From an uncultured Pedobacter sp. (GTDB taxonomy: Bacteria; Bacteroidota; Bacteroidia; Sphingobacteriales; Sphingobacteriaceae), in assembly GCF_913776295.1 (NCBI RefSeq), contig NZ_CAJYOJ010000079.1:62001-126000 (forward strand): a stretch of 64,000 nucleotides of DNA. The letters run 5' to 3'. Each line of letters begins with the position of its first letter. The stretch's first letter is position 1. Both the position numbers and the translations under genes were made by a program. The notes below the pieces were generated by a model. That model was not told the DNA's origin, made no database searches, and saw only the letters and a program-made list of their open reading frames with translations. This document shows, one piece after another, positions 24,928 through 55,928 of this stretch.

Positions 24928-25668
24928 TTAAAACTGGCTGATTTTGCTCAACTTTTTCCTCATCACAGCGAAAAGCGGATAAGGAATTTTATTTCTTTTA
25001 AGGGCCTTATAATCATTAACAAAGGCAGCTAACCTGCTCCTTAAAGAATGGTTACTTATACCACCTGTACGCATGTTTACCATTAAGATTGGCAAATATA
25101 CCGCCAAGATTTTATGGGTAAAAAAGTATCTTAAGATTAATTCATAATCTGCGGCGGTACCTAAATCCAGGGCATAATCTCCATTTACCCCAAACAACGA
25201 TCTTTTCAGATAAAGAGTGGGGTGAGCGGGCATCCAGCCTTTTTTAAGATCTGCATAGGTATTCTGTTTTGATTTCCACGTTCTGATAATGCTATTTGCG
25301 GTAGGATGGATGTAATTGAGGTCGCCATAAAGTCCATCTATCTCTGGCCGGTCGATAAAGGTTTTGGCTACAGCTGCCAGTACATGGGCATCAGCAAACA
25401 GATCATCGGCATTTAAAATCCCAACCACCTCTCCTGTTGCATTCCGGATTCCTTTATTTATGGCATCATATAAACCCTTATCTTTTTCTGAAACGAAGTA
25501 ATCAATGACAGATCGGTTTTCCTGGATAATCTGCAATGTCCCGTCTGTCGAGCCTCCATCAATTACAATATATTCTATATCAGTATAGGTTTGTTCCTTT
25601 ACAGAATTAAAACATTCCTGCAAATAGGTTTCTGCATTGTAAACAACTGTAATAAGGGATATTTTCAT
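24928..25668 (-). CDS. Glycosyltransferase family 2
   Basis: 246 aa GT-A enzyme. ISLITVVYNAETYLQECFNS (about 3-22) opens the nucleotide-sugar fold, IVIDGGSTDGTLQII (about 34-48) follows, and LNADDLFAD (about 84-92) supplies the metal-binding DxD. AAVAKTF.. and the C-terminal half match WcaA/RfbG-like transferases that act on an early sugar (the region IRTWKSKQ, GWMPAHPTLYLKRS is typical). It lies upstream of the WecA-like gene on the same strand and may add the second sugar. Donor and acceptor unknown. Confidence 0.88.
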   Translation of the reverse strand: MKISLITVVYNAETYLQECFNSVKEQTYTDIEYIVIDGGSTDGTLQIIQENRSVIDYFVSEKDKGLYDAINKGIRNATGEVVGILNADDLFADAHVLAAVAKTFIDRPEIDGLYGDLNYIHPTANSIIRTWKSKQNTYADLKKGWMPAHPTLYLKRSLFGVNGDYALDLGTAADYELILRYFFTHKILAVYLPILMVNMRTGGISNHSLRSRLAAFVNDYKALKRNKIPYPLFAVMRKKLSKISQF

Positions 25669-25788: not shown

Positions 25789-26169
25789 TTACTCTTTTTT
25801 TCTGATCAGGAATATACCGAAAAGACTGGCAGCTGCACCAAAAAGCCAGGTTTGGTCGTCGAGGTCGCATTCCACCATCGTAAATATTCCCTCTCGTCCG
25901 TTAACAGTTGTTCCACCAACGCATAACAGCCCTACTGCATTTATAGTACCGAAACACACACTACAGGGTACAGTTGAGGCAGATGTCCAACTGCAATAAT
26001 TACTAGAAAGTGATGCTGAAGAAGAACTACTATAAAGTTTAAGTCCTGCCAATTCAGTATAGCTAGTATAAACTTTATTATCAGGCAATAAACAGCCAGA
26101 AGCTGAACCCTGAGCAAAAGCAATTAAAGAGATTAACATAGTTACCAAAAAGATGCACAGTAATTTCAT
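25789..26169 (-). CDS. Small secreted Cys-containing protein with exosortase-type C-terminal signal (paralog A)
   Basis: 126 aa. Signal peptide (about 1-19, IFLVTMLISLIAFAQG), then ASGCLLPDNKVYTSY, a Ser-rich middle and a C-x-x-C pair (PCSVC, about 69-73). The C-terminus is VECDLDDQTW, a hydrophobic helix (LFGAAASLFGIFLI) and the basic tail RKKE. That is the three-part architecture of exosortase/PEP-CTERM-like substrates: short motif, one membrane helix, basic end. Two intact relatives and a decayed one lie within 2.3 kb. Not a family I know by name. Proposed as a target of the exosortase at 55347-55928. Confidence 0.75.
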   Translation of the reverse strand: MKLLCIFLVTMLISLIAFAQGSASGCLLPDNKVYTSYTELAGLKLYSSSSSASLSSNYCSWTSASTVPCSVCFGTINAVGLLCVGGTTVNGREGIFTMVECDLDDQTWLFGAAASLFGIFLIRKKE

Positions 26170-26328
26170 GTATCAGCAATAGGATACACGAATTTACTTT
26201 ACTTACTAACTACAAACTACGTTCTTTTTGTTCAATTCTTAAAGTTGATATGGCAATAATTAGAAATTAATTTCTTAGCAGTATATCAGTTATTGCTAGA
26301 CAATACTCAATATAATGAGTTGGGATTA

Positions 26329-26778
26329 TTAAACATCCATCAGTTTAGATTTTTTTATTACGAAAAAGCCGTAAAAGCCACAAACAGCTAAAAGATAATA
26401 CAAAGAGCTATCTAATGGCAAATTTTCGGCAGCACATTTTTGTTTAATTATGGTAACAGATCCACCTGTTGAAGCAACTGAGCCATCATTATTATAGGCA
26501 ATGCAATTTTCTCTTGAGCCAGAAGTAGAGTGATCATAATAATACGTTCCACAAGCCAAACCTGAACTATCAGACCAGTTGCTCATGGAAGTTGGTGTGC
26601 CATTGAAAGACCTTACAGTATGAGAATATGGCGCATAATAAACATAACCAAGATCATTTGGATAAAATGTGGTATCACCATTAATAGCGCAACCTGTTAT
26701 GTCAGCATAAGATTTAAAGCTACAGAACGAAAGAAATAAAATAATACAAATCGAATAATAAAACTTCATAAAAAACAT
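26329..26778 (-). CDS. Small secreted protein with exosortase-type C-terminal signal (paralog B)
   Basis: 149 aa. Signal peptide (about 1-26) ending near SYADITGC; a Tyr/Ser/Asn-rich body with ACGTYYYD; and the C-terminal block CAAENLPLDSSLYYLL, a membrane helix (AVCGFYGFFVI) and the basic tail KKSK. The PLD motif, helix and basic end line up with paralogs A and D. Start: the first ATG gives MFFMKFYY; the second (MKFYY, three codons on) is equally plausible. Function unknown; likely surface-anchored or glycosylated after processing, by analogy with exosortase systems. Confidence 0.72.
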   Translation of the reverse strand: MFFMKFYYSICIILFLSFCSFKSYADITGCAINGDTTFYPNDLGYVYYAPYSHTVRSFNGTPTSMSNWSDSSGLACGTYYYDHSTSGSRENCIAYNNDGSVASTGGSVTIIKQKCAAENLPLDSSLYYLLAVCGFYGFFVIKKSKLMDV

Positions 26779-26797
26779 ATTTAGTATTTTTTATACT

Positions 26798-26818
26798 ACA
26801 ATATTTTGCAAATATTGT
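26798..26818. promoter_or_regulatory. Palindrome upstream of paralog B
   Basis: ACAATATTT TGC AAATATTGT: 9-base perfect arms with a 3-base centre, 20 bases before the gene start at 26778. It could be an operator. No U-tract follows on either strand. Confidence 0.4.
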
Positions 26819-27199
26819 AAATTAAGAAGTCATAAACGCTATCTTAAAAGGGCAGGTTTTAAAAAAAGACATTAAACAAATAAATGAATAGGATTTAAAT
26901 TAGAATAATTACACGAAAAAGATAGTTTAGATATGTTTAAAAGCATATTTTAGAAAATAAAAGGATTATAGCCTATAATTAAATTATTGACAATCATCAC
27001 GAACAAAATGAACAGATCACGGAGATGCATACAACCTATTGATACTTTTATCCAATCAATAGGTCGCATTATTTGATAATTTAATTCAGTTGATAGGGAT
27101 CAAAAAAATTGAATAAGTGAAAAAAAGATTTTTCATATCAATTTTCACTATAACTTTGAGTGCAATATAAATTAGCAATACATTTATTATAAATTTCGG
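26819..27199. other. Intergenic region with an inverted repeat and a candidate promoter, no gene
   Basis: AT-rich. Inverted repeat ACCTATTGAT (27034-27043) and ATCAATAGGT (27055-27064), 11-base loop. A shorter one (TGAAAAA/TTTTTCA) lies at 27118-27135. TAACTTTG at 27151-27158 (+) fits the -7 consensus and would serve the decayed paralog that begins at 27200. Confidence 0.5.
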
Positions 27200-27666
27200 A
27201 TGCGTTTTTCTTTTCACTTAGCTCTTACATCTTTATCTTTTTTTTGGTGCATTACTAATACTTCTGCTTCAATACTGTTTTTTCAGTGCCTCCACCTCCT
27301 AAAGGCTGTTTAGTTGGATCAAGAATGCACACCCATTATTTACGTAATGTATATGTATACGATCCGAACAACTCCAATAATGTAAATGAATACCGTTACA
27401 TCTTCGTATCTGAATATTCGGTTCCAAAATCATGTGTCAGTGGGAGATTTTTTTTTTCCGGACCTAGTCCAAATGGTTCCGGAATGGTCCAAATTGGTTG
27501 CGATTTAGATAAAACAGATTATGCTTCTAAAGTCCATAACCCATCTTAGGAAAATTTTACTGTGAATTGCCCTTTAGATGAAAGTATTTGGCTATTGTTA
27601 TTATCATCAACAACATTTGTTATTTTATATTTTAGAAAACTAATAAAGCTGTTTTCACCAATTTAA
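27200..27666 (+). pseudogene. Decayed paralog of the exosortase-type secreted proteins (paralog C)
   Basis: An ATG at 27200 begins a hydrophobic, signal-peptide-like stretch (MRFSFHLALTSLSFF) next to a run of eight Ts, then the frame shifts at least once before the body frame (PPPPKGCLVGSRM, from about 27286) is reached. The body has a KSCVSGRFF segment like the Cys motifs of the other copies. An in-frame TAG at 27547-27549 interrupts it, but the same frame goes straight on to NCPLDESIWLLLLSSTTF and VILYFRKLIK, a complete CPLD-helix-basic C-terminus, ending with TAA at 27664-27666. So two kinds of damage (frameshift plus nonsense) are visible in a recognisable family member. Sequencing error could explain one but hardly all of them. 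Confidence 0.7.
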
Positions 27667-27737
27667 CATGATTTTATCAAAAGTATTGACCTCAGATAAT
27701 TTTTATGAGATTATTATAAATTAAATAGATTATTTGC

Positions 27738-28088
27738 CTAAAACAATCTACGCCGAACGGTAAAATATCCAATCATTCCGATACTAAGCAAAAGTGCTGA
27801 AGTTTCATCATCAAGCGGACAATTAAGCGTACTGTAATCACTTTTAATACCTGGGTAATAGTCATTAGAACCTATAAAATAATAAACCTTACAAGGAATT
27901 TGTACTGCTGAAGGGCATTTTGTATCTACAGGTGTATAACCAGAATAATAGCCATAGTTATCTGCACCAGGATGAGAAAGACTTGAACCTGTATAGATAT
28001 AACCATTATATAAACAGCCTGTTTGGCCAAAAGACCTGTTTATTCCGATTAAACAAATACATAAAAATGTTAAATAAAACTTTGACAT
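27738..28088 (-). CDS. Small secreted protein with exosortase-type C-terminal signal (paralog D)
   Basis: 116 aa. Signal peptide ending near SFGQTGC, then LYNGYIYTG (compare paralog A), a Tyr/Gly-rich body and the IPCKVYYF segment. The C-terminus is STLNCPLDDETSALLLSIG, a helix (MIGYFTV) and RRRLF. It shows the best-formed CPLDD motif of the set. Upstream on the minus strand lies TAATTTTG, a promoter -7 match. It is the copy nearest the divergent wza-like gene that starts the main polysaccharide operon. Confidence 0.75.
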   Translation of the reverse strand: MSKFYLTFLCICLIGINRSFGQTGCLYNGYIYTGSSLSHPGADNYGYYSGYTPVDTKCPSAVQIPCKVYYFIGSNDYYPGIKSDYSTLNCPLDDETSALLLSIGMIGYFTVRRRLF

Positions 28089-28418: not shown

Positions 28419-29234
28419 ATGACCCTAAGAAAAGCTATCTTAAAATTTCTTTGCATTCTATCTATCAGCATCACACTTGCAAGTTGTGCTGCCAGGAAAG
28501 AGCATAGTTTGTTTAACGCTCCCAGCGACATCGTTACCGACACCATTAAGCAGGTGTATGTAGTAAATGACCATGGCATTAGTGATGCCTATTATAAAAT
28601 AAAAGTGAATGACCAATTGGCTGTCAGGAACCTGCAAAACAAGGAATTTGGCGCAACTGCGGCTGCCAACGGCAGTTCAATTGGTAACCAAACAGCAAGT
28701 GGGCCTATTGGTAATACGCTATCGTATCTGGTAGATGTAGATGGGACAGTAAATCTTCCCGCTATCGGAAAAGTGGAAGTATCGGGCCTTAGCAGAAGGG
28801 AAGCTGCCATTAAAATACAAGATTTATATGCCAAAAAATTGCTCCGCGATCCTATTATAGAACTCAGTGTCGTAAACTTAAAGGTTACTTTATTGGGCGA
28901 ATTTAGCAAACAAGGAAATTTCTTACTGGAACGAGAAAACGCAACTTTAATCGATATTATTGGCGAAGCCGGCGGGATAAGCAAAACAGCAGACCCCAAA
29001 ACCCTTAAGATTATCCGTGGTGATAGAAGCCGCCCGGAAATTATTTATGTCAATTTAAACGACATTAACAGCTTAGCCAGCAAAAAACTGGTGCTTCAGA
29101 ACAATGATATTATTGTACTGCAACAAACCAAAAGTTCGGCATTAAGCGAAAAGCTAACAAGTGTGAACAATATTGTACAACCTTTGCTTGTAGTAGTTAA
29201 CCTGGCTGTCTTAATCTTTACCCTAACCCGCTAA
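28419..29234 (+). CDS. Polysaccharide export outer membrane lipoprotein (Wza-like)
   Basis: 271 aa. Lipoprotein signal with lipobox LASC (Cys about 23). A polysaccharide biosynthesis/export (PES) domain follows: DAYYKIKVNDQLAVRNL (about 57-73), VDVDGTVNLPAIGKVEVSGL (about 105-124), then an SLBB-like domain (VTLLGEFSKQGNFLLERENA, EAGGISKTADPKTLKIIRGD). It ends with a membrane-like hydrophobic stretch (VVVNLAVLIFTL). Forms the outer membrane exit for exopolysaccharide or capsule. The stop overlaps the next start (TAATG). Confidence 0.92.
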   Translation: MTLRKAILKFLCILSISITLASCAARKEHSLFNAPSDIVTDTIKQVYVVNDHGISDAYYKIKVNDQLAVRNLQNKEFGATAAANGSSIGNQTASGPIGNTLSYLVDVDGTVNLPAIGKVEVSGLSRREAAIKIQDLYAKKLLRDPIIELSVVNLKVTLLGEFSKQGNFLLERENATLIDIIGEAGGISKTADPKTLKIIRGDRSRPEIIYVNLNDINSLASKKLVLQNNDIIVLQQTKSSALSEKLTSVNNIVQPLLVVVNLAVLIFTLTR

Positions 29235-51761: not shown

Positions 51762-51833
51762 AAATTTGTGATAAGATTTTTAACAATACAAATATCTTAA
51801 TCACTCTAATAAATCCATTATTAAAGATTATTG

Positions 51834-53261
51834 ATGCATAATAATCCAACTAAACTCATCCTCCTACTGCATTTCCCTGTACTGGTTTCTTATATATTGA
51901 TTAATAGCCCGATCATATCGTATTTTATTGCCTGGTTTGGTTCGCTTTTTATTTTTTATACTACCATATTATCTCCGGCAGCCATTATTAAAACCGATCT
52001 GCCTATCCATAAACAGATTATGCGGCCCATATTCCTGCTGCAACTCATTTTTGCTGGATTTATGTGTGTCACGTCTGTATTTTATTTTATGGATCATTTG
52101 GGCTATAGGTATTTAACCGCCATCAATTATGGCGCACAATTTAAAGAAAACGAACAAACCATGTTGATTGCCAGCTGCCAGCGCATGAGTTTATTGGCAC
52201 ATGCTGCATTGGTTACGGGTATGCTGTTGGTTCAAAAACACAACATCAAGCTTAAAAGTGCTAAGTCTTTTGAAAGTGACGAATTTCTCATCTGGTTAGG
52301 CATCATTGTATTTAGCATTGGCTCACTAACACAACGTTTCCCTGGCCTCAACCAAATTGCCATCCCACTCACTATCGTTGGTATATCATGCGCAGCAGTA
52401 TTATTTGTTAAAGGCGTTAACTCCAAAAATATAAGATACCTGGGCATTGGTGCCAGCATATTCGTTATCAACTTTTTACACGCTTCTTTATCCGGCTATA
52501 AAGAACCCATTATCATCAACGTGATTGTGATAGCCTGCGTTTTTTTCCCTTATTATAAAAAACTGATACTTTATGTAACTATTCCAGTTGCATATGTTCT
52601 CGTTTATTTTTTACCAACATACAACAATACGGTTCGGCAGAGCTGGAGCGGTGAGGTAAGTGCAGAAGAAGCACAGCATCAAGCATTTGAAAATTTGAAT
52701 GCAAAAAATGAGGAACAGATTGAAGAAACAAACTGGAGCTTTATGACGAAGCGCTTAAGCGAAATAGAAATGTTTACCCAATTTGTAGATTATGTGCCTG
52801 AGCACCATCCATATTATGACTGGGAAATAATTGAAAATTCTTTGGAGGGATTAATTCCCAGAGTTTTCTGGGCTGGAAAACCCAATATGGAAACGGTTTC
52901 CATGCAGAGGGTTTATGATGCAGGAGTGGCAAATCAAATGTCATCCGTCTCCGCGAAAACACGTCCCGTTGTAGATGCCTATTTAAGCTTCGGCATACCT
53001 GGAGTCTTCTTTTTTATGCTGCTTTATGGCATGCTGGTGCAACACTTATCAGACAAAGCCGAGGAAATATTCGGTGGTTACGAACTGGGATGTGTCATTA
53101 TGTTTAACAGCATTTTCCAGGGGCTATGGCGTGGAAATAATTTCGAATTTATGTTCAATAACATCTTTTGGGGTTATGTAATCATGTGGTTTCTTTTTGC
53201 TTTGCTGAGAACAATAAAAGTATTAAAGCCGGTATTTGATCAGCTGGATGAATTAGTTTAG
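51834..53261 (+). CDS. Wzy-like polysaccharide polymerase (exosortase-associated type)
   Basis: 475 aa with about ten to twelve membrane helices. I choose the ATG at 51834 over the TTG at 51831. Long central loop (about 235-350) with NTVRQSWSGEVSAEEAQHQA, and GLIPRVFWAGKPNMETVSM (about 341-359), followed by VVDAYLSFGIPGVFFFMLLY (about 378-397). The charge pattern and loop layout fit polysaccharide polymerases rather than flippases. From memory, a Wzy-like protein is part of the conserved set beside the XrtY exosortase in Pedobacter-like genomes. Its coexistence with a Wzm/Wzt exporter is noted in the findings. Confidence 0.75.
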   Translation: MHNNPTKLILLLHFPVLVSYILINSPIISYFIAWFGSLFIFYTTILSPAAIIKTDLPIHKQIMRPIFLLQLIFAGFMCVTSVFYFMDHLGYRYLTAINYGAQFKENEQTMLIASCQRMSLLAHAALVTGMLLVQKHNIKLKSAKSFESDEFLIWLGIIVFSIGSLTQRFPGLNQIAIPLTIVGISCAAVLFVKGVNSKNIRYLGIGASIFVINFLHASLSGYKEPIIINVIVIACVFFPYYKKLILYVTIPVAYVLVYFLPTYNNTVRQSWSGEVSAEEAQHQAFENLNAKNEEQIEETNWSFMTKRLSEIEMFTQFVDYVPEHHPYYDWEIIENSLEGLIPRVFWAGKPNMETVSMQRVYDAGVANQMSSVSAKTRPVVDAYLSFGIPGVFFFMLLYGMLVQHLSDKAEEIFGGYELGCVIMFNSIFQGLWRGNNFEFMFNNIFWGYVIMWFLFALLRTIKVLKPVFDQLDELV

Positions 53262-53302
53262 CGATAAGGATTAGATGGTTGCCAGATCAAAGAGTTAGAA
53301 AA

Positions 53303-54487
53303 TTGAAAGTGATACACATTACAGCTTCCTATAAACCGGCCTATATTTATGGTGGACCAATACAGAGTGTGGCAAAGTTGGTTGAGGCATTGGTGAGTTT
53401 ACGGTTTAGAGAAAATGGGTTATGCATTGATGATGTGCAGGTATTAACGACTACAGCCAATGGGAAAAAGGAGCTGGCTGTAAAAATCGGCACCCCTGTT
53501 TTGGTCGATGGGGTAAGCGTTACCTATTTTAAGCGCCAAACAAAAGATCACAGCCATTTTTCGCTTGGGTTGTTGTGGGCATTAATAAATACTCTTCGAC
53601 AGGCTCAGGATGACAAAATAGTGATACACATCCATGCCTGGTGGAACCTGGTGTCAATACTGAGTTGCTGTGTTGCAAAATGGTATCGTATTCCTGTCGT
53701 GCTTTCGCCCCGCGGCATGCTTACCTCCTACACATTAGGCAACCGCAATTCCTTATCAAAAAAAATTATCCACGACTTACTCGGGAAACGGCTATTAAGA
53801 TATTGCCATATTCATTCCACCAGTGAACAGGAAAAGAAAGATATCATTAAAATAATTAAGCCAAAAAGCATCACCATAATTCCTAATCTGGTGAGTCTTC
53901 CATTTCCGGTTTCCGGTATTCATAAGTCCAATAACGATAAATTTCGCCTGCTGTTCCTCTCCCGTATTGAACAGAAAAAAGGGCTTGAAATCCTTTTTAA
54001 AGCATTGGCGATTGTAAATATCCCTTGGCTATTAACCATTGCAGGTGCAGGAACAGAAGAATATGTACAAAGTCTGAAGCTTAAAGCAGAAGAACTAAAA
54101 ATTCATCAACAAATCAACTGGATCGGACACGTGACTAATGAGGATAAATTTGATTTATTGGCCAGGCACGATTTAACAGCCTTAACCTCCTATAATGAGA
54201 ATTTTGCCAATGTGATAGTAGAAAGTTTAAGTGTAGGTACACCGGTACTCATCAGTAAATTTGTTGGTCTGGCTGATTATGTTGCAGCTAAAAACCTGGG
54301 CTGGATTACCGGACTAAAAGTGGAAGAAATTAAAACCGGGATCCTTTCGGCATATGAGGATATCAAACAAAGAAAAGAAATCAGAACCCTGGCTCCTTTA
54401 GTGGTAAATGCTGATTTTAAAGATGATGCATTGGCTAAACAATACGTAGCATGCTATAAAAAAGTTTTGGCTACCCAATTGCTTTAA
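53303..54487 (+). CDS. Glycosyltransferase, GT4 (exosortase-associated, XYAG1-like)
   Basis: 394 aa. I choose the TTG at 53303 (MKVIHITASYKPAYIYGGPI) because the conserved N-terminus begins there; the TTG at 53279 adds eight residues. GT-B with VVLSPRGMLTSYTLGNRNSL (about 133-152), KFRLLFLSRIEQKKGLEIL (about 213-231), LLTIAGAGTEEYV and ENFANVIVESLSVGTPVLI (about 299-317). The AYIYGGP motif recalls the glycosyltransferase that NCBI lists as accompanying XrtY. Codons 97-104 contain a known intergenic-type repeat (53592-53615). Starts 42 bases after the polymerase gene. Confidence 0.85.
   Translation: MKVIHITASYKPAYIYGGPIQSVAKLVEALVSLRFRENGLCIDDVQVLTTTANGKKELAVKIGTPVLVDGVSVTYFKRQTKDHSHFSLGLLWALINTLRQAQDDKIVIHIHAWWNLVSILSCCVAKWYRIPVVLSPRGMLTSYTLGNRNSLSKKIIHDLLGKRLLRYCHIHSTSEQEKKDIIKIIKPKSITIIPNLVSLPFPVSGIHKSNNDKFRLLFLSRIEQKKGLEILFKALAIVNIPWLLTIAGAGTEEYVQSLKLKAEELKIHQQINWIGHVTNEDKFDLLARHDLTALTSYNENFANVIVESLSVGTPVLISKFVGLADYVAAKNLGWITGLKVEEIKTGILSAYEDIKQRKEIRTLAPLVVNADFKDDALAKQYVACYKKVLATQLL
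53592..53615. repeat. Copy of the CTTCGACAGGCTCAGGATGACA dispersed repeat inside a coding region
   Basis: The bases CTCTTCGACAGGCTCAGGAT and GACA (53592-53615) match a short palindromic-type repeat that I know as widespread between genes in many bacterial genomes, including Bacteroidota (usual form CTTCGACARGCTCAGGRTGACA). Here it is in frame in a glycosyltransferase gene, where it encodes LRQAQDD between NT and KIVIH. It lies in the variable linker before the conserved HIHAWW segment. Confidence 0.65.
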
Positions 54488-54492
54488 CTTAA

Positions 54493-55350
54493 ATGAATCC
54501 TAATTTTAGTTTTATTGTTCTAACTTTTAATGAGCAGATGCATCTGCCCAGATTGTTAGCATCTATTAGAGCCCTACATGCCCCCATATTTATTCTGGAT
54601 AGCGGAAGTACTGACGAAACCTTGAAAATTGCAGGTAGTTATGGCGCTGAAGTAAAACAGAACCCGTTTATAAACCACCCGAAACAATGGGATTTCGCTT
54701 TAAAAAACTTTAAGGTAGAAACACCCTGGACGATTGGCCTGGATGCCGATCAGATGGTTACCCCTGAACTTTTCGAAATGCTCGCTAATTTCGATGAAAA
54801 TAAACATCATGATATCAATGGGATTTACTTTAACCGCAAAAACTTTTTTCAGGGAAGCTGGATCAGGTTTGGCACTTATTATCCTTTTTATATTTTAAAA
54901 ATGTTCAGAACAGGAATCGGTTTCTCTGATCTGAACGAGAACATGGACCACCGTTTTATTGTTCCGGGTAAAACCGAAATCTGGAAAAAAGGATGGATTT
55001 TGGAAGAAAACCTTAAAGAAAACGATATTGCTTTTTGGAAGGCCAAACATGAACGCTATAGCGACCTGGTAGCCCAGGAAGAGGTAGAAAGAATGTTAAA
55101 GCTGCGTACGCAAAGTTTTAGGCCTAACTTGTCAGGCAGTCCTGATGAAAAGCGGGCATGGTTGAAACAATTATGGTGGAAACTTCCACTCGGATTGCGT
55201 CCTTATCTTTACTTTGGCTACCGGATGTTTTTTAAACTCGGTATATTTGAAGGCCGTACCGGAATTAAATTCCACTATCTCCAGGGTTTTTGGTTTAGAA
55301 AACTGGTAGATCGAAAAATTATGGCAATAAAAAAGCAAAATAATATATGA
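54493..55350 (+). CDS. Glycosyltransferase family 2 (WaaE/KdtX-like)
   Basis: 285 aa. FSFIVLTFNEQMHLPRLLAS (about 5-24), IFILDSGSTDETLKIA (about 32-47), TPWTIGLDADQMVTPELFEM (about 76-95, metal-binding LDAD) and the C-terminal WDSFxF-like segment FGTYYPFYILKMFRTGIGFS. The layout (short GT-A domain followed by basic amphipathic C-terminus) is that of lipid-carrier glycosyltransferases such as WaaE. Overlaps the exosortase start (ATGA), which ties the two together. Confidence 0.85.
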   Translation: MNPNFSFIVLTFNEQMHLPRLLASIRALHAPIFILDSGSTDETLKIAGSYGAEVKQNPFINHPKQWDFALKNFKVETPWTIGLDADQMVTPELFEMLANFDENKHHDINGIYFNRKNFFQGSWIRFGTYYPFYILKMFRTGIGFSDLNENMDHRFIVPGKTEIWKKGWILEENLKENDIAFWKAKHERYSDLVAQEEVERMLKLRTQSFRPNLSGSPDEKRAWLKQLWWKLPLGLRPYLYFGYRMFFKLGIFEGRTGIKFHYLQGFWFRKLVDRKIMAIKKQNNI

Positions 55351-55928
55351 CTCCTGAAGAAGCAAAAAAAGATGCGAATAAAAAGGCCATTAAATTTCTG
55401 ATTGTGCTTTTTATCTTATACATCCTGTTTACCCAGGGCAATCTGTTTATGAACAGCGTAATGACACCTGGCTCAAGATTTTATAATGCCTATATTGCCG
55501 ATCACTTCGATTATATCCAGGGCTTGAAAACGGCACTGATTGTACCCGCGGTATGGATGATTAAAGCATTTGGTCTTTATGCCATCTATAACAAAATGGA
55601 CGTGATGGTTGTTGCCGGGCCTTACCTCAGGATCAACTATTCTTGCCTGGGTCTTGGCGTAATGAGTTTTCTGGCTGCATTTGTACTGGCATTTCCTGCC
55701 TCGTGGAAGTCCAGGATCAAAATGCTTTGTATTGGTATTTTAACCATTTATATACTCAATATATTTCGCATTGCAGGATTAGGTATTTTATTGGGACTTT
55801 TTAAATCTCAACGGAAAAATTTCACTTATCACCATGAAGTTTTTAACATCATTGTGTATATCTGTGTGTTTACCATGCTTTATTTCTGGATTAAAAGAAA
55901 CAACAGACCGAAAATAACCAAGCCATAA
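55347..55928 (+). CDS. Exosortase family protein (XrtY-like)
   Basis: 193 aa with five or six membrane helices. The three residues that define exosortases/archaeosortases are all present: Cys in INYSCLGLGVM (about 100), Arg in LNIFRIAGLGI (about 141) and His in YHHEVFN (about 162-163). The family cleaves C-terminal sorting signals (motif, membrane helix, basic tail) and attaches the protein to an envelope glycolipid; it typically sits at the end of an EPS locus, as here. No substrate gene is adjacent, but three paralogous candidates lie at the other end of the locus (25789-28088). Start overlaps the previous stop by four bases (ATGA). XrtY is named from memory. Confidence 0.9.
   Translation: MTPEEAKKDANKKAIKFLIVLFILYILFTQGNLFMNSVMTPGSRFYNAYIADHFDYIQGLKTALIVPAVWMIKAFGLYAIYNKMDVMVVAGPYLRINYSCLGLGVMSFLAAFVLAFPASWKSRIKMLCIGILTIYILNIFRIAGLGILLGLFKSQRKNFTYHHEVFNIIVYICVFTMLYFWIKRNNRPKITKP

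Follow-up and report, generated by a model that had tools for sequence, protein, structure and literature searches.

Small secreted proteins with a C-terminal PLD-type tag in Pedobacter and its relatives: probable substrates of exosortase Y

Exosortases, archaeosortases and rhombosortases are thought to cut C-terminal sorting tags, after which the protein stays at the surface, held by a new anchor (PMC11980579). In the PEP-CTERM/EpsH system (exosortase A type) a signal peptide, a C-terminal tag, a membrane enzyme and polysaccharide genes go together, and the system was proposed from the same kind of co-occurrence argument as is used below (PMC1569441); when a PEP-CTERM protein was overexpressed in a regulator mutant of Aquincola, there was less soluble and more bound exopolysaccharide (PMC9850573). 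MYXO-CTERM is likewise a tripartite tag with a conserved Cys (PMC11980579). XrtF of Flavobacterium johnsoniae, another exosortase of the Bacteroidota, emerged from a surface-colonisation screen, and that 2024 study leaves its substrates for future work (PMC10936215). Here we analyse a 64,000-nucleotide stretch of an uncultured Pedobacter sp. (the window; G000:C79:62001-126000, genus labelled g1) that holds an array of four genes for small secreted proteins with a PLD-type C-terminal tag, PLDDY, which has a counterpart, PLDTW, in a second genus (g26). Sequence comparison makes it highly probable that the four genes encode, or once encoded, substrates of exosortase Y (XrtY), and that PLDDY and PLDTW are the recognition signal of this enzyme.

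The system differs from PEP-CTERM/EpsH in motif and enzyme class; its motif usually has a Cys before it, and its tag varies in type from one XrtY clade to another. The enzyme of MYXO-CTERM, myxosortase, is a protease of the CPBP type; the enzyme that co-occurs with the PLDDY-type tag is an exosortase. XrtF is of a different class from the window XrtY, on which the XrtF model TIGR04128 scores 50.6 bits against a cut-off of 90. NCBIfam already models XrtY, the XrtY-associated Wzy, XYAG1 and a tag termed PID-CTERM. In the openly licensed literature we found nothing on XrtY, PID-CTERM or a PLD-type tag, and mentions of 'exosortase x' turned out to concern XrtA and XrtF.

The array comprises the following coding stretches, the intact ones taken from the list of open reading frames (ORFs):

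25789..26169, minus strand: intact small secreted protein of 126 amino acids; ASGC near the mature start, tail ECDLDDQ-helix-RKKE
26329..26778, minus strand: intact small secreted protein of 149 amino acids; ITGC near the mature start, tail NLPLDSS-helix-KKSK
about 27200..27666, plus strand: decayed copy, tail NCPLDES-helix-RK, from a three-frame reading and a match to the copy in locus L072
27738..28088, minus strand: intact small secreted protein of 116 amino acids; QTGC near the mature start, tail NCPLDDE-helix-RRR

A preliminary description of the window had proposed three intact and one decayed small secreted paralogs, and the ORF list, the three-frame reading and the L072 match bear this out. 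In the decayed copy the signal-peptide stretch lies in a different frame and an in-frame TAG (27547-27549) stands upstream of NCPLDES; its two pieces are 80% (82 amino acids) and 58% (31 amino acids) identical to the intact L072:6586-7077. Counted by eye, the mature parts of the 126-, 149- and 116-residue proteins contain 6, 4 and 4 Cys. A search of the window's genome (G000) with the tag profile described below returned only these four places at E ≤ 0.1 (G000:C79:87795, E 2.7e-11; 88350, E 5.8e-8; 89559, E 5.2e-7; 89747, E 2.7e-9, in the order listed). Pfam gave no match at E ≤ 5 for two of the intact proteins and for the decayed copy read through; zf-CGNR for the third protein (Pfam, E 0.13) was weak and Prp for one of the proteins (NCBIfam, E 0.06) fell far below its cut-off, and both were set aside as noise. 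None of the NCBIfam sorting-tag models reached its cut-off on the three window proteins and the seven relatives scanned. The relatives gave just weak matches below cut-off, for example to an LPXTG anchor model (E 2) and, on the signal peptide, to PExPT-CTERM (E 0.14). An AlphaFold2 model from four aligned sequences (three from the window, one from L032) was too poor for a fold search (mean pLDDT 45.8, pTM 0.28), and a plasmid collection contained no match to the array region.

In relatives the corresponding slot is filled by divergent small secreted proteins with the consensus tail CP(L/I)DDY-helix-RK. Profile A1 (PLDDY) was made from 47 C-termini out of 49 segments, two near-copies being dropped; one match without the motif had been excluded earlier, and one PID sequence (L030) in the first seed set was removed beforehand. 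Its consensus is C-P-(L/I)-D-D-Y, helix and R/K, with an invariant Asp. Profile A2 (PLDTW) holds 12 CPLDTW segments, repeats dropped, from weak A1 matches read as small secreted proteins in genus g26, where XrtY was common and A1 rare in the 300-genome test described below. Signal peptides and helices were called by hydropathy rules rather than by a trained predictor, and by these rules the proteins have the anatomy of a substrate, an N-terminal signal peptide and a C-terminal motif, helix and basic tail. The layout first noted on the window proteins recurs beyond chance: genes with the tag stand next to the Wza-like gene (described below) in 14 of 14 stretches in which that gene was found, and among 78 distinct members GC lies at residues 16-50 in 67 and a Cys lies at most five residues upstream of the motif Asp in 70. 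By eye, GC often lies a few residues beyond an A-x-A-like site, and the ITGC of the 149-residue protein would be compatible with a lipobox. Of the 66 PLDDY members, 58 have 4, 6 or 8 Cys in the mature part, and of the 12 PLDTW members 11 have 2; such even numbers suggest disulfides. PLDDY members have a median mature length of 87 residues, a rough value since the cleavage rule gave one member length 0, and PLDTW members one of 19 (range 17-36, n = 12). The 68 mature regions of at least 25 residues fell into 28 clusters at E < 1e-3, the largest of 20 (including the 126-residue window protein) and 10; the two other window proteins stood alone. A single tag is thus borne by otherwise dissimilar proteins and is far better conserved than the rest of them.

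The presumed processing enzyme is encoded about 27 kb beyond the array, in the same polysaccharide locus and near the XrtY-associated Wzy and XYAG1 genes:

55347..55928, plus strand: exosortase Y (XrtY), presumed processing enzyme (NF046083, 236 bits, cut-off 160)

The placing of the array at the start of a polysaccharide locus that encodes an exosortase, made in the preliminary description, is borne out. Of nine loci in named genomes retrieved with this XrtY, eight belong to Pedobacter and one to a Sphingobacteriaceae MAG. In an alignment of 90 relatives of this XrtY a Cys is conserved in 90, an Arg in 90 and a His in 88, residues which we take to be catalytic.

Co-occurrence of tag and enzyme was examined twice. 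Among 36 genomes of the window's genus, XrtY scored above 225 bits in 16, and all 16 had a tag match (best E ≤ 9.4e-10). The other 20 comprised eight with a lower-scoring XrtY, none of which had an A1 match at E ≤ 0.001, and 12 without XrtY. In these 20 genomes G030 had one clear member (E 7.2e-8), G021 and G025 gave weak matches (E 1.3e-4 and 2.7e-4), and the matches of G032, G033 and G002 (E 0.005-0.06) were rejected, the tail being PID-like in G032 and not member-like in G033 and G002. The second set consisted of 300 genomes of the order, 138 with XrtY at the threshold of at least 120 bits and 162 without; Fisher values for this table ignore kinship and are not usable as probabilities. PLDDY was matched in 60 of 138 genomes with XrtY against 2 of 162 without, PLDTW in 61 against none, and one or both in 105 of 138 against 2 of 162. 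For PID-CTERM, with matches taken at E ≤ 0.001, the counts were 35 against 6 (34 of the 41 above the curated cut-off), and for any of the three tags 133 against 8. Four of these eight (G105, G138, G160 and G199) match the XrtY model more weakly; G030 and G025 account for the two PLDDY matches, and G196 and G286 are genomes of the window's genus with a PID-CTERM match and no XrtY match. Beyond the window's family, 17 of 23 genomes of other families have a weak or better match to the XrtY model. Since the tag is nearly confined to XrtY genomes in these sets, the tagged proteins are very probably the missing substrates of XrtY. The earlier recognition of an exosortase-substrate layout is supported by these counts, and the many tag-bearing genomes without an exosortase that would speak against it were not found.

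The type of tag, moreover, matches the clade of the enzyme. Within the window's genus, the genomes with XrtY above 205 bits, together with G134 and its broken XrtY, match PLDDY in 54 of 54 cases and PID in one; the 22 genomes with lower XrtY match PLDDY in none, PLDTW in one and PID in 21. The 48 XrtY genomes of g26 match PLDTW in 45 cases, PLDDY in five and PID in four. A tree of 90 XrtY sequences (made by a quick method, with several long rows) largely splits by tag type: it contains a 24-row all-PLDDY clade (99, starred), a PID group of 24 (88) and two PLDTW groups of 14 rows (98, starred) and nine rows (85). G072 (PID) stands apart from the other PID bearers, and G087 and G189, which match all three profiles, lie near the base of a larger group holding PID bearers (support 81). 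Five changes between PL-type and PID-only are needed on this tree, omitting tagless rows and nine rows without a full tag search and scoring rows with both PL and PID as PL. In two g26 genomes, G187 and G263, enzyme and tag jointly differ from the rest of that genus: on a starred branch the tree places their XrtY with the PLDDY sequences, and they carry PLDDY tags and no match to PLDTW or PID. This agreement of tag type and clade, together with the near-exclusive co-occurrence, is why we read PLDDY and PLDTW as the XrtY signal. The check put forward in the preliminary description, whether the tag is found only with an XrtY-like exosortase, comes out in its favour, with two matches in the 162 genomes without XrtY. 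The converse does not hold for every XrtY, as one group has PID-CTERM instead.

PID-CTERM (NF046080) is the closest catalogued relative of the tag. Small secreted proteins carry it, too, at the C-terminus, as a short P-I-D motif with a helix and then a basic tail, and it lies beside exosortase genes in L029 and L030. It differs in that the motif continues with GG in six PID genes read from the window's genus, where the PLDDY/PLDTW tag has DY or TW, and in that 38 of 41 genomes have a single match, whereas PLDDY genes form arrays of up to seven. NF046080 matched none of the three window proteins (E ≤ 1), none of the seven relatives (E ≤ 10) and nothing in G000. The claim that the motif belongs to no known type can accordingly be kept in so far as the PID model misses the window proteins, and needs qualifying in that PID-CTERM is close and a few relatives match both: PLDDY/PLDTW is a very probable exosortase sorting tag that grades into the catalogued PID-CTERM. 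In the window's genus, PID-CTERM matches L152-L159 have a TolC-like gene and a gene with a weak N-acetylglucosamine kinase match alongside in 8 of 8 loci (one of each was scanned, both below cut-off). G189, the sole genome of the genus with a high XrtY and both PID and PLDDY, has its PID-CTERM match about 5 kb from XrtY (G189:C2:1020751-1025938).

The association was also set against linkage and kinship. The 45 g26 genomes with PLDTW hold 58 PLDTW genes, 40 of them on contigs other than that of XrtY; the remaining 18 share its contig at distances of 131 kb to 5.1 Mb. Linkage does not, therefore, explain g26. In ten further genomes (five of the g26 PLDTW type, G187, G263 and three with low XrtY) no tagged gene was recognised within about 20 kb either side of XrtY by two hydropathy filters or A1; the tagged genes of the first seven are located elsewhere, as are the PID genes of the other three. 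Some PLDDY genes also lie on other contigs or far from XrtY, for example in G016. On a species tree from FtsI and MurE (60 genomes), seven independent pairs could be formed, all on starred branches, in which one partner has high-type XrtY and the other lacks it; the PLDDY tag goes with XrtY in five, against it in none and shows no difference in two (sign test, p 0.0625, the least possible with five informative pairs). For 'any tag', 11 pairs gave means of 6.6 same, 0.8 opposite and 3.6 without difference; genomes unsearched for PID-CTERM (including G012, G015, G028 and several PLDDY genomes) were scored as lacking it, which affects only these 'any tag' pairs.

Several observations count against the assignment of the tag to XrtY. 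G030 and G025 retain a PLDDY member and have no XrtY, associated Wzy or exosortase-family match; the G030 member is complete, sits beside the same GT2-type glycosyltransferase gene as the array in the window and is close to a contig end. A third genome, G021 (78% complete), has weak A1 matches at E 1.3e-4 and 0.003. Conversely, there are five XrtY genomes (G033, G090, G129, G163 and G253) in which all three profiles fail to find a match. A2 also gives weak matches (E 3.5e-6 to 6e-4) in 13 genomes of the window's genus, where places were compared mostly at PLDDY genes (for example in G202, G060 and G010), and some PL genes match the PID model, above its cut-off in G076 and G087. Because the profiles overlap in this way, the counts by tag type are not fully separate, and PLDDY, PLDTW and PID are better seen as neighbouring variants of one tag theme than as three unrelated signals. 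The profiles were, in addition, trained on XrtY genomes (12 of the 54 and 10 of the 48), the independent-pair comparison was limited to seven pairs, and the conserved Cys may point to lipidation of the kind proposed for MYXO-CTERM.

With the training genomes left out, the tag is still present in 42 of 42 PLDDY-type genomes and in 35 of the 38 that remain for g26, as counted from the lists. G030 and G025 lie inside the XrtY-bearing clade of the species tree, so relics after loss of the enzyme are the simplest reading; two other genomes of this clade, G144 and G148, have neither XrtY nor tag. Tagged genes persist in G134 and G173, genomes whose XrtY frames are broken by stops or a frame change (G134:C29:155509-156025, G173:C30:19591-20076), the state expected soon after loss.

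We propose that each tagged protein would be exported by Sec and retained in the inner membrane by its C-terminal helix and basic tail. By analogy with the described exosortases, XrtY should then act at the tag: it would recognise C-P-(L/I)-D-D-Y, or C-P-L-D-T-W in g26, cut near the motif Asp and probably join the new C-terminus to an acceptor. The predicted product is a small protein, rich in disulfides, that would sit on the cell surface or within the exopolysaccharide and may hold or shape the polysaccharide; the position of the array inside a polysaccharide locus makes a role like that in Aquincola plausible.

Three other explanations deserve consideration. If the Cys were lipidated, another membrane protease could cut the tag in the manner of MYXO-CTERM and myxosortase, and XrtY would merely belong to the same polysaccharide programme. 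The frequent Cys close to the motif Asp would suit this, and MYXO-CTERM combines an invariant Cys with a helix and a basic tail (PMC11980579). On the other side, tag type tracks the XrtY clade, and the even Cys counts of the mature parts fit disulfides better than one lipidated Cys; nor was a MYXO-CTERM model among the NCBIfam matches of the three window proteins (E ≤ 1) or seven relatives (E ≤ 10), a search that did not extend to myxosortase itself. We regard this scheme as very unlikely. The tag might instead be the ordinary membrane anchor of a paralogous surface family, alike through shared descent and never processed, as the common layout (GC start, Cys before the motif) and the 20 of 68 mature regions in one cluster would allow. 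But an ordinary anchor should be neither limited to XrtY genomes nor switched in type with the XrtY clade, and 12 PLDTW proteins keep the tag on predicted mature parts of just 17-36 residues. We regard a plain anchor, too, as very unlikely.

We give least credence to the idea that a single mobile polysaccharide locus carries both the tagged proteins and XrtY and that linkage alone brings them together. The PLDDY-type array does stand at one end of the XrtY locus, yet none of the 58 PLDTW genes lies less than 130 kb from XrtY on the same contig, PLDDY genes such as those of G016 can be unlinked or distant, and G019 keeps the associated Wzy (699 bits) with neither an exosortase match nor a tag match. 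Recognition of the tag by XrtY remains the reading that we prefer.

The array is bounded by two further genes:

24928..25668, minus strand: GT2-type glycosyltransferase, border on one side, matches below cut-offs
28419..29234, plus strand: Wza-like polysaccharide export protein, border on the other side, matches below cut-offs

The slot is conserved: in each of the 14 stretches with the Wza-like gene (the window and 13 relatives) one to seven tagged genes adjoin that gene, and in 12 of the 14 the GT2-type gene closes the array on the opposite side. Most tagged genes point away from the Wza-like gene; exceptions are the decayed window copy and the corresponding genes of L070 and L072, which have the reverse orientation.

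Three genes precede XrtY:

51831..53261, plus strand: XrtY-associated Wzy-like protein (NF046084, 641.7 bits, cut-off 420)
53279..54487, plus strand: XrtY-associated glycosyltransferase XYAG1 (NF046085, 593.5 bits, cut-off 400)
54493..55350, plus strand: glycosyltransferase upstream of XrtY, its ORF overlapping that of XrtY by four bases; fused to XrtY in some relatives

The XrtY open frame is 464-514 amino acids long in 30 of the 138 XrtY genomes (G014, G032 and G035 among them). The four long frames read (L020, L021, L023 and L024; three of them belong to these named genomes) begin with a glycosyltransferase, and over 283 residues the window glycosyltransferase at 54493..55350 shares 52% identity with the N-terminal part of one fused frame. 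It is probable that glycosyltransferase and XrtY take part in the same step or complex. A second exosortase is encoded in the window's genome, XrtK (G000:C4:56338-56628, L192:5339-5629; 84 bits, cut-off 55), which we set aside as the processing enzyme because three tag-bearing genomes, G003, G005 and G016, have just the XrtY place in a search of the whole exosortase family. In a neighbourhood listing with a coarse filter this XrtK was clustered with a 940-amino-acid protein.

PLDTW genes have a neighbourhood of their own. Thirty PLDTW loci (L211-L240) were compared, each the best match of its genome. In 27 of them the PLDTW gene directly follows a large frame of one cluster on the same strand, the gap being at most 31 bases in 23 of the 27 when the first ATG of the frame is taken as its start; L213 provides an example (large frame 2-1366, PLDTW gene 1327-1608). 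The three exceptions (L220, L231 and L237) have other neighbours, and many of the 27 represent one conserved gene order in one genus and are not 27 independent events. TIGR04183, the type IX sorting domain, scored above its cut-off in all five frames scanned, four beside PLDTW genes and a same-strand frame beside a PID match in G271; two of the five also match PF18962 (Pfam). A PID gene of G014 likewise overlaps a large frame of this kind at its end, the frame being recognised by a custom profile alone, and the same custom profile found no such large gene in the stretches with window-type PLDDY genes. We put forward, tentatively and as a possibility that is on balance doubtful, that XrtY works with type IX secretion, the g26 peptide being an anchor, plug or partner of the cargo and the small proteins of the window's genus, a set that changes fast, serving the polysaccharide coat. 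If true, one machine (XrtY or type IX) would finish the product of the other.

Exosortase-type matches are common in this bacterial class, yet their substrates there are poorly known. A defined XrtY tag would provide substrates to follow in soil bacteria and a readout for the chemistry of the enzyme. PLDDY against PID within one genus, and PLDDY against PLDTW between two (including G187 and G263), would be natural enzyme-tag pairs with changed specificity, and the pairing of PLDTW genes with type IX cargo genes hints at a connection between two systems of surface display.

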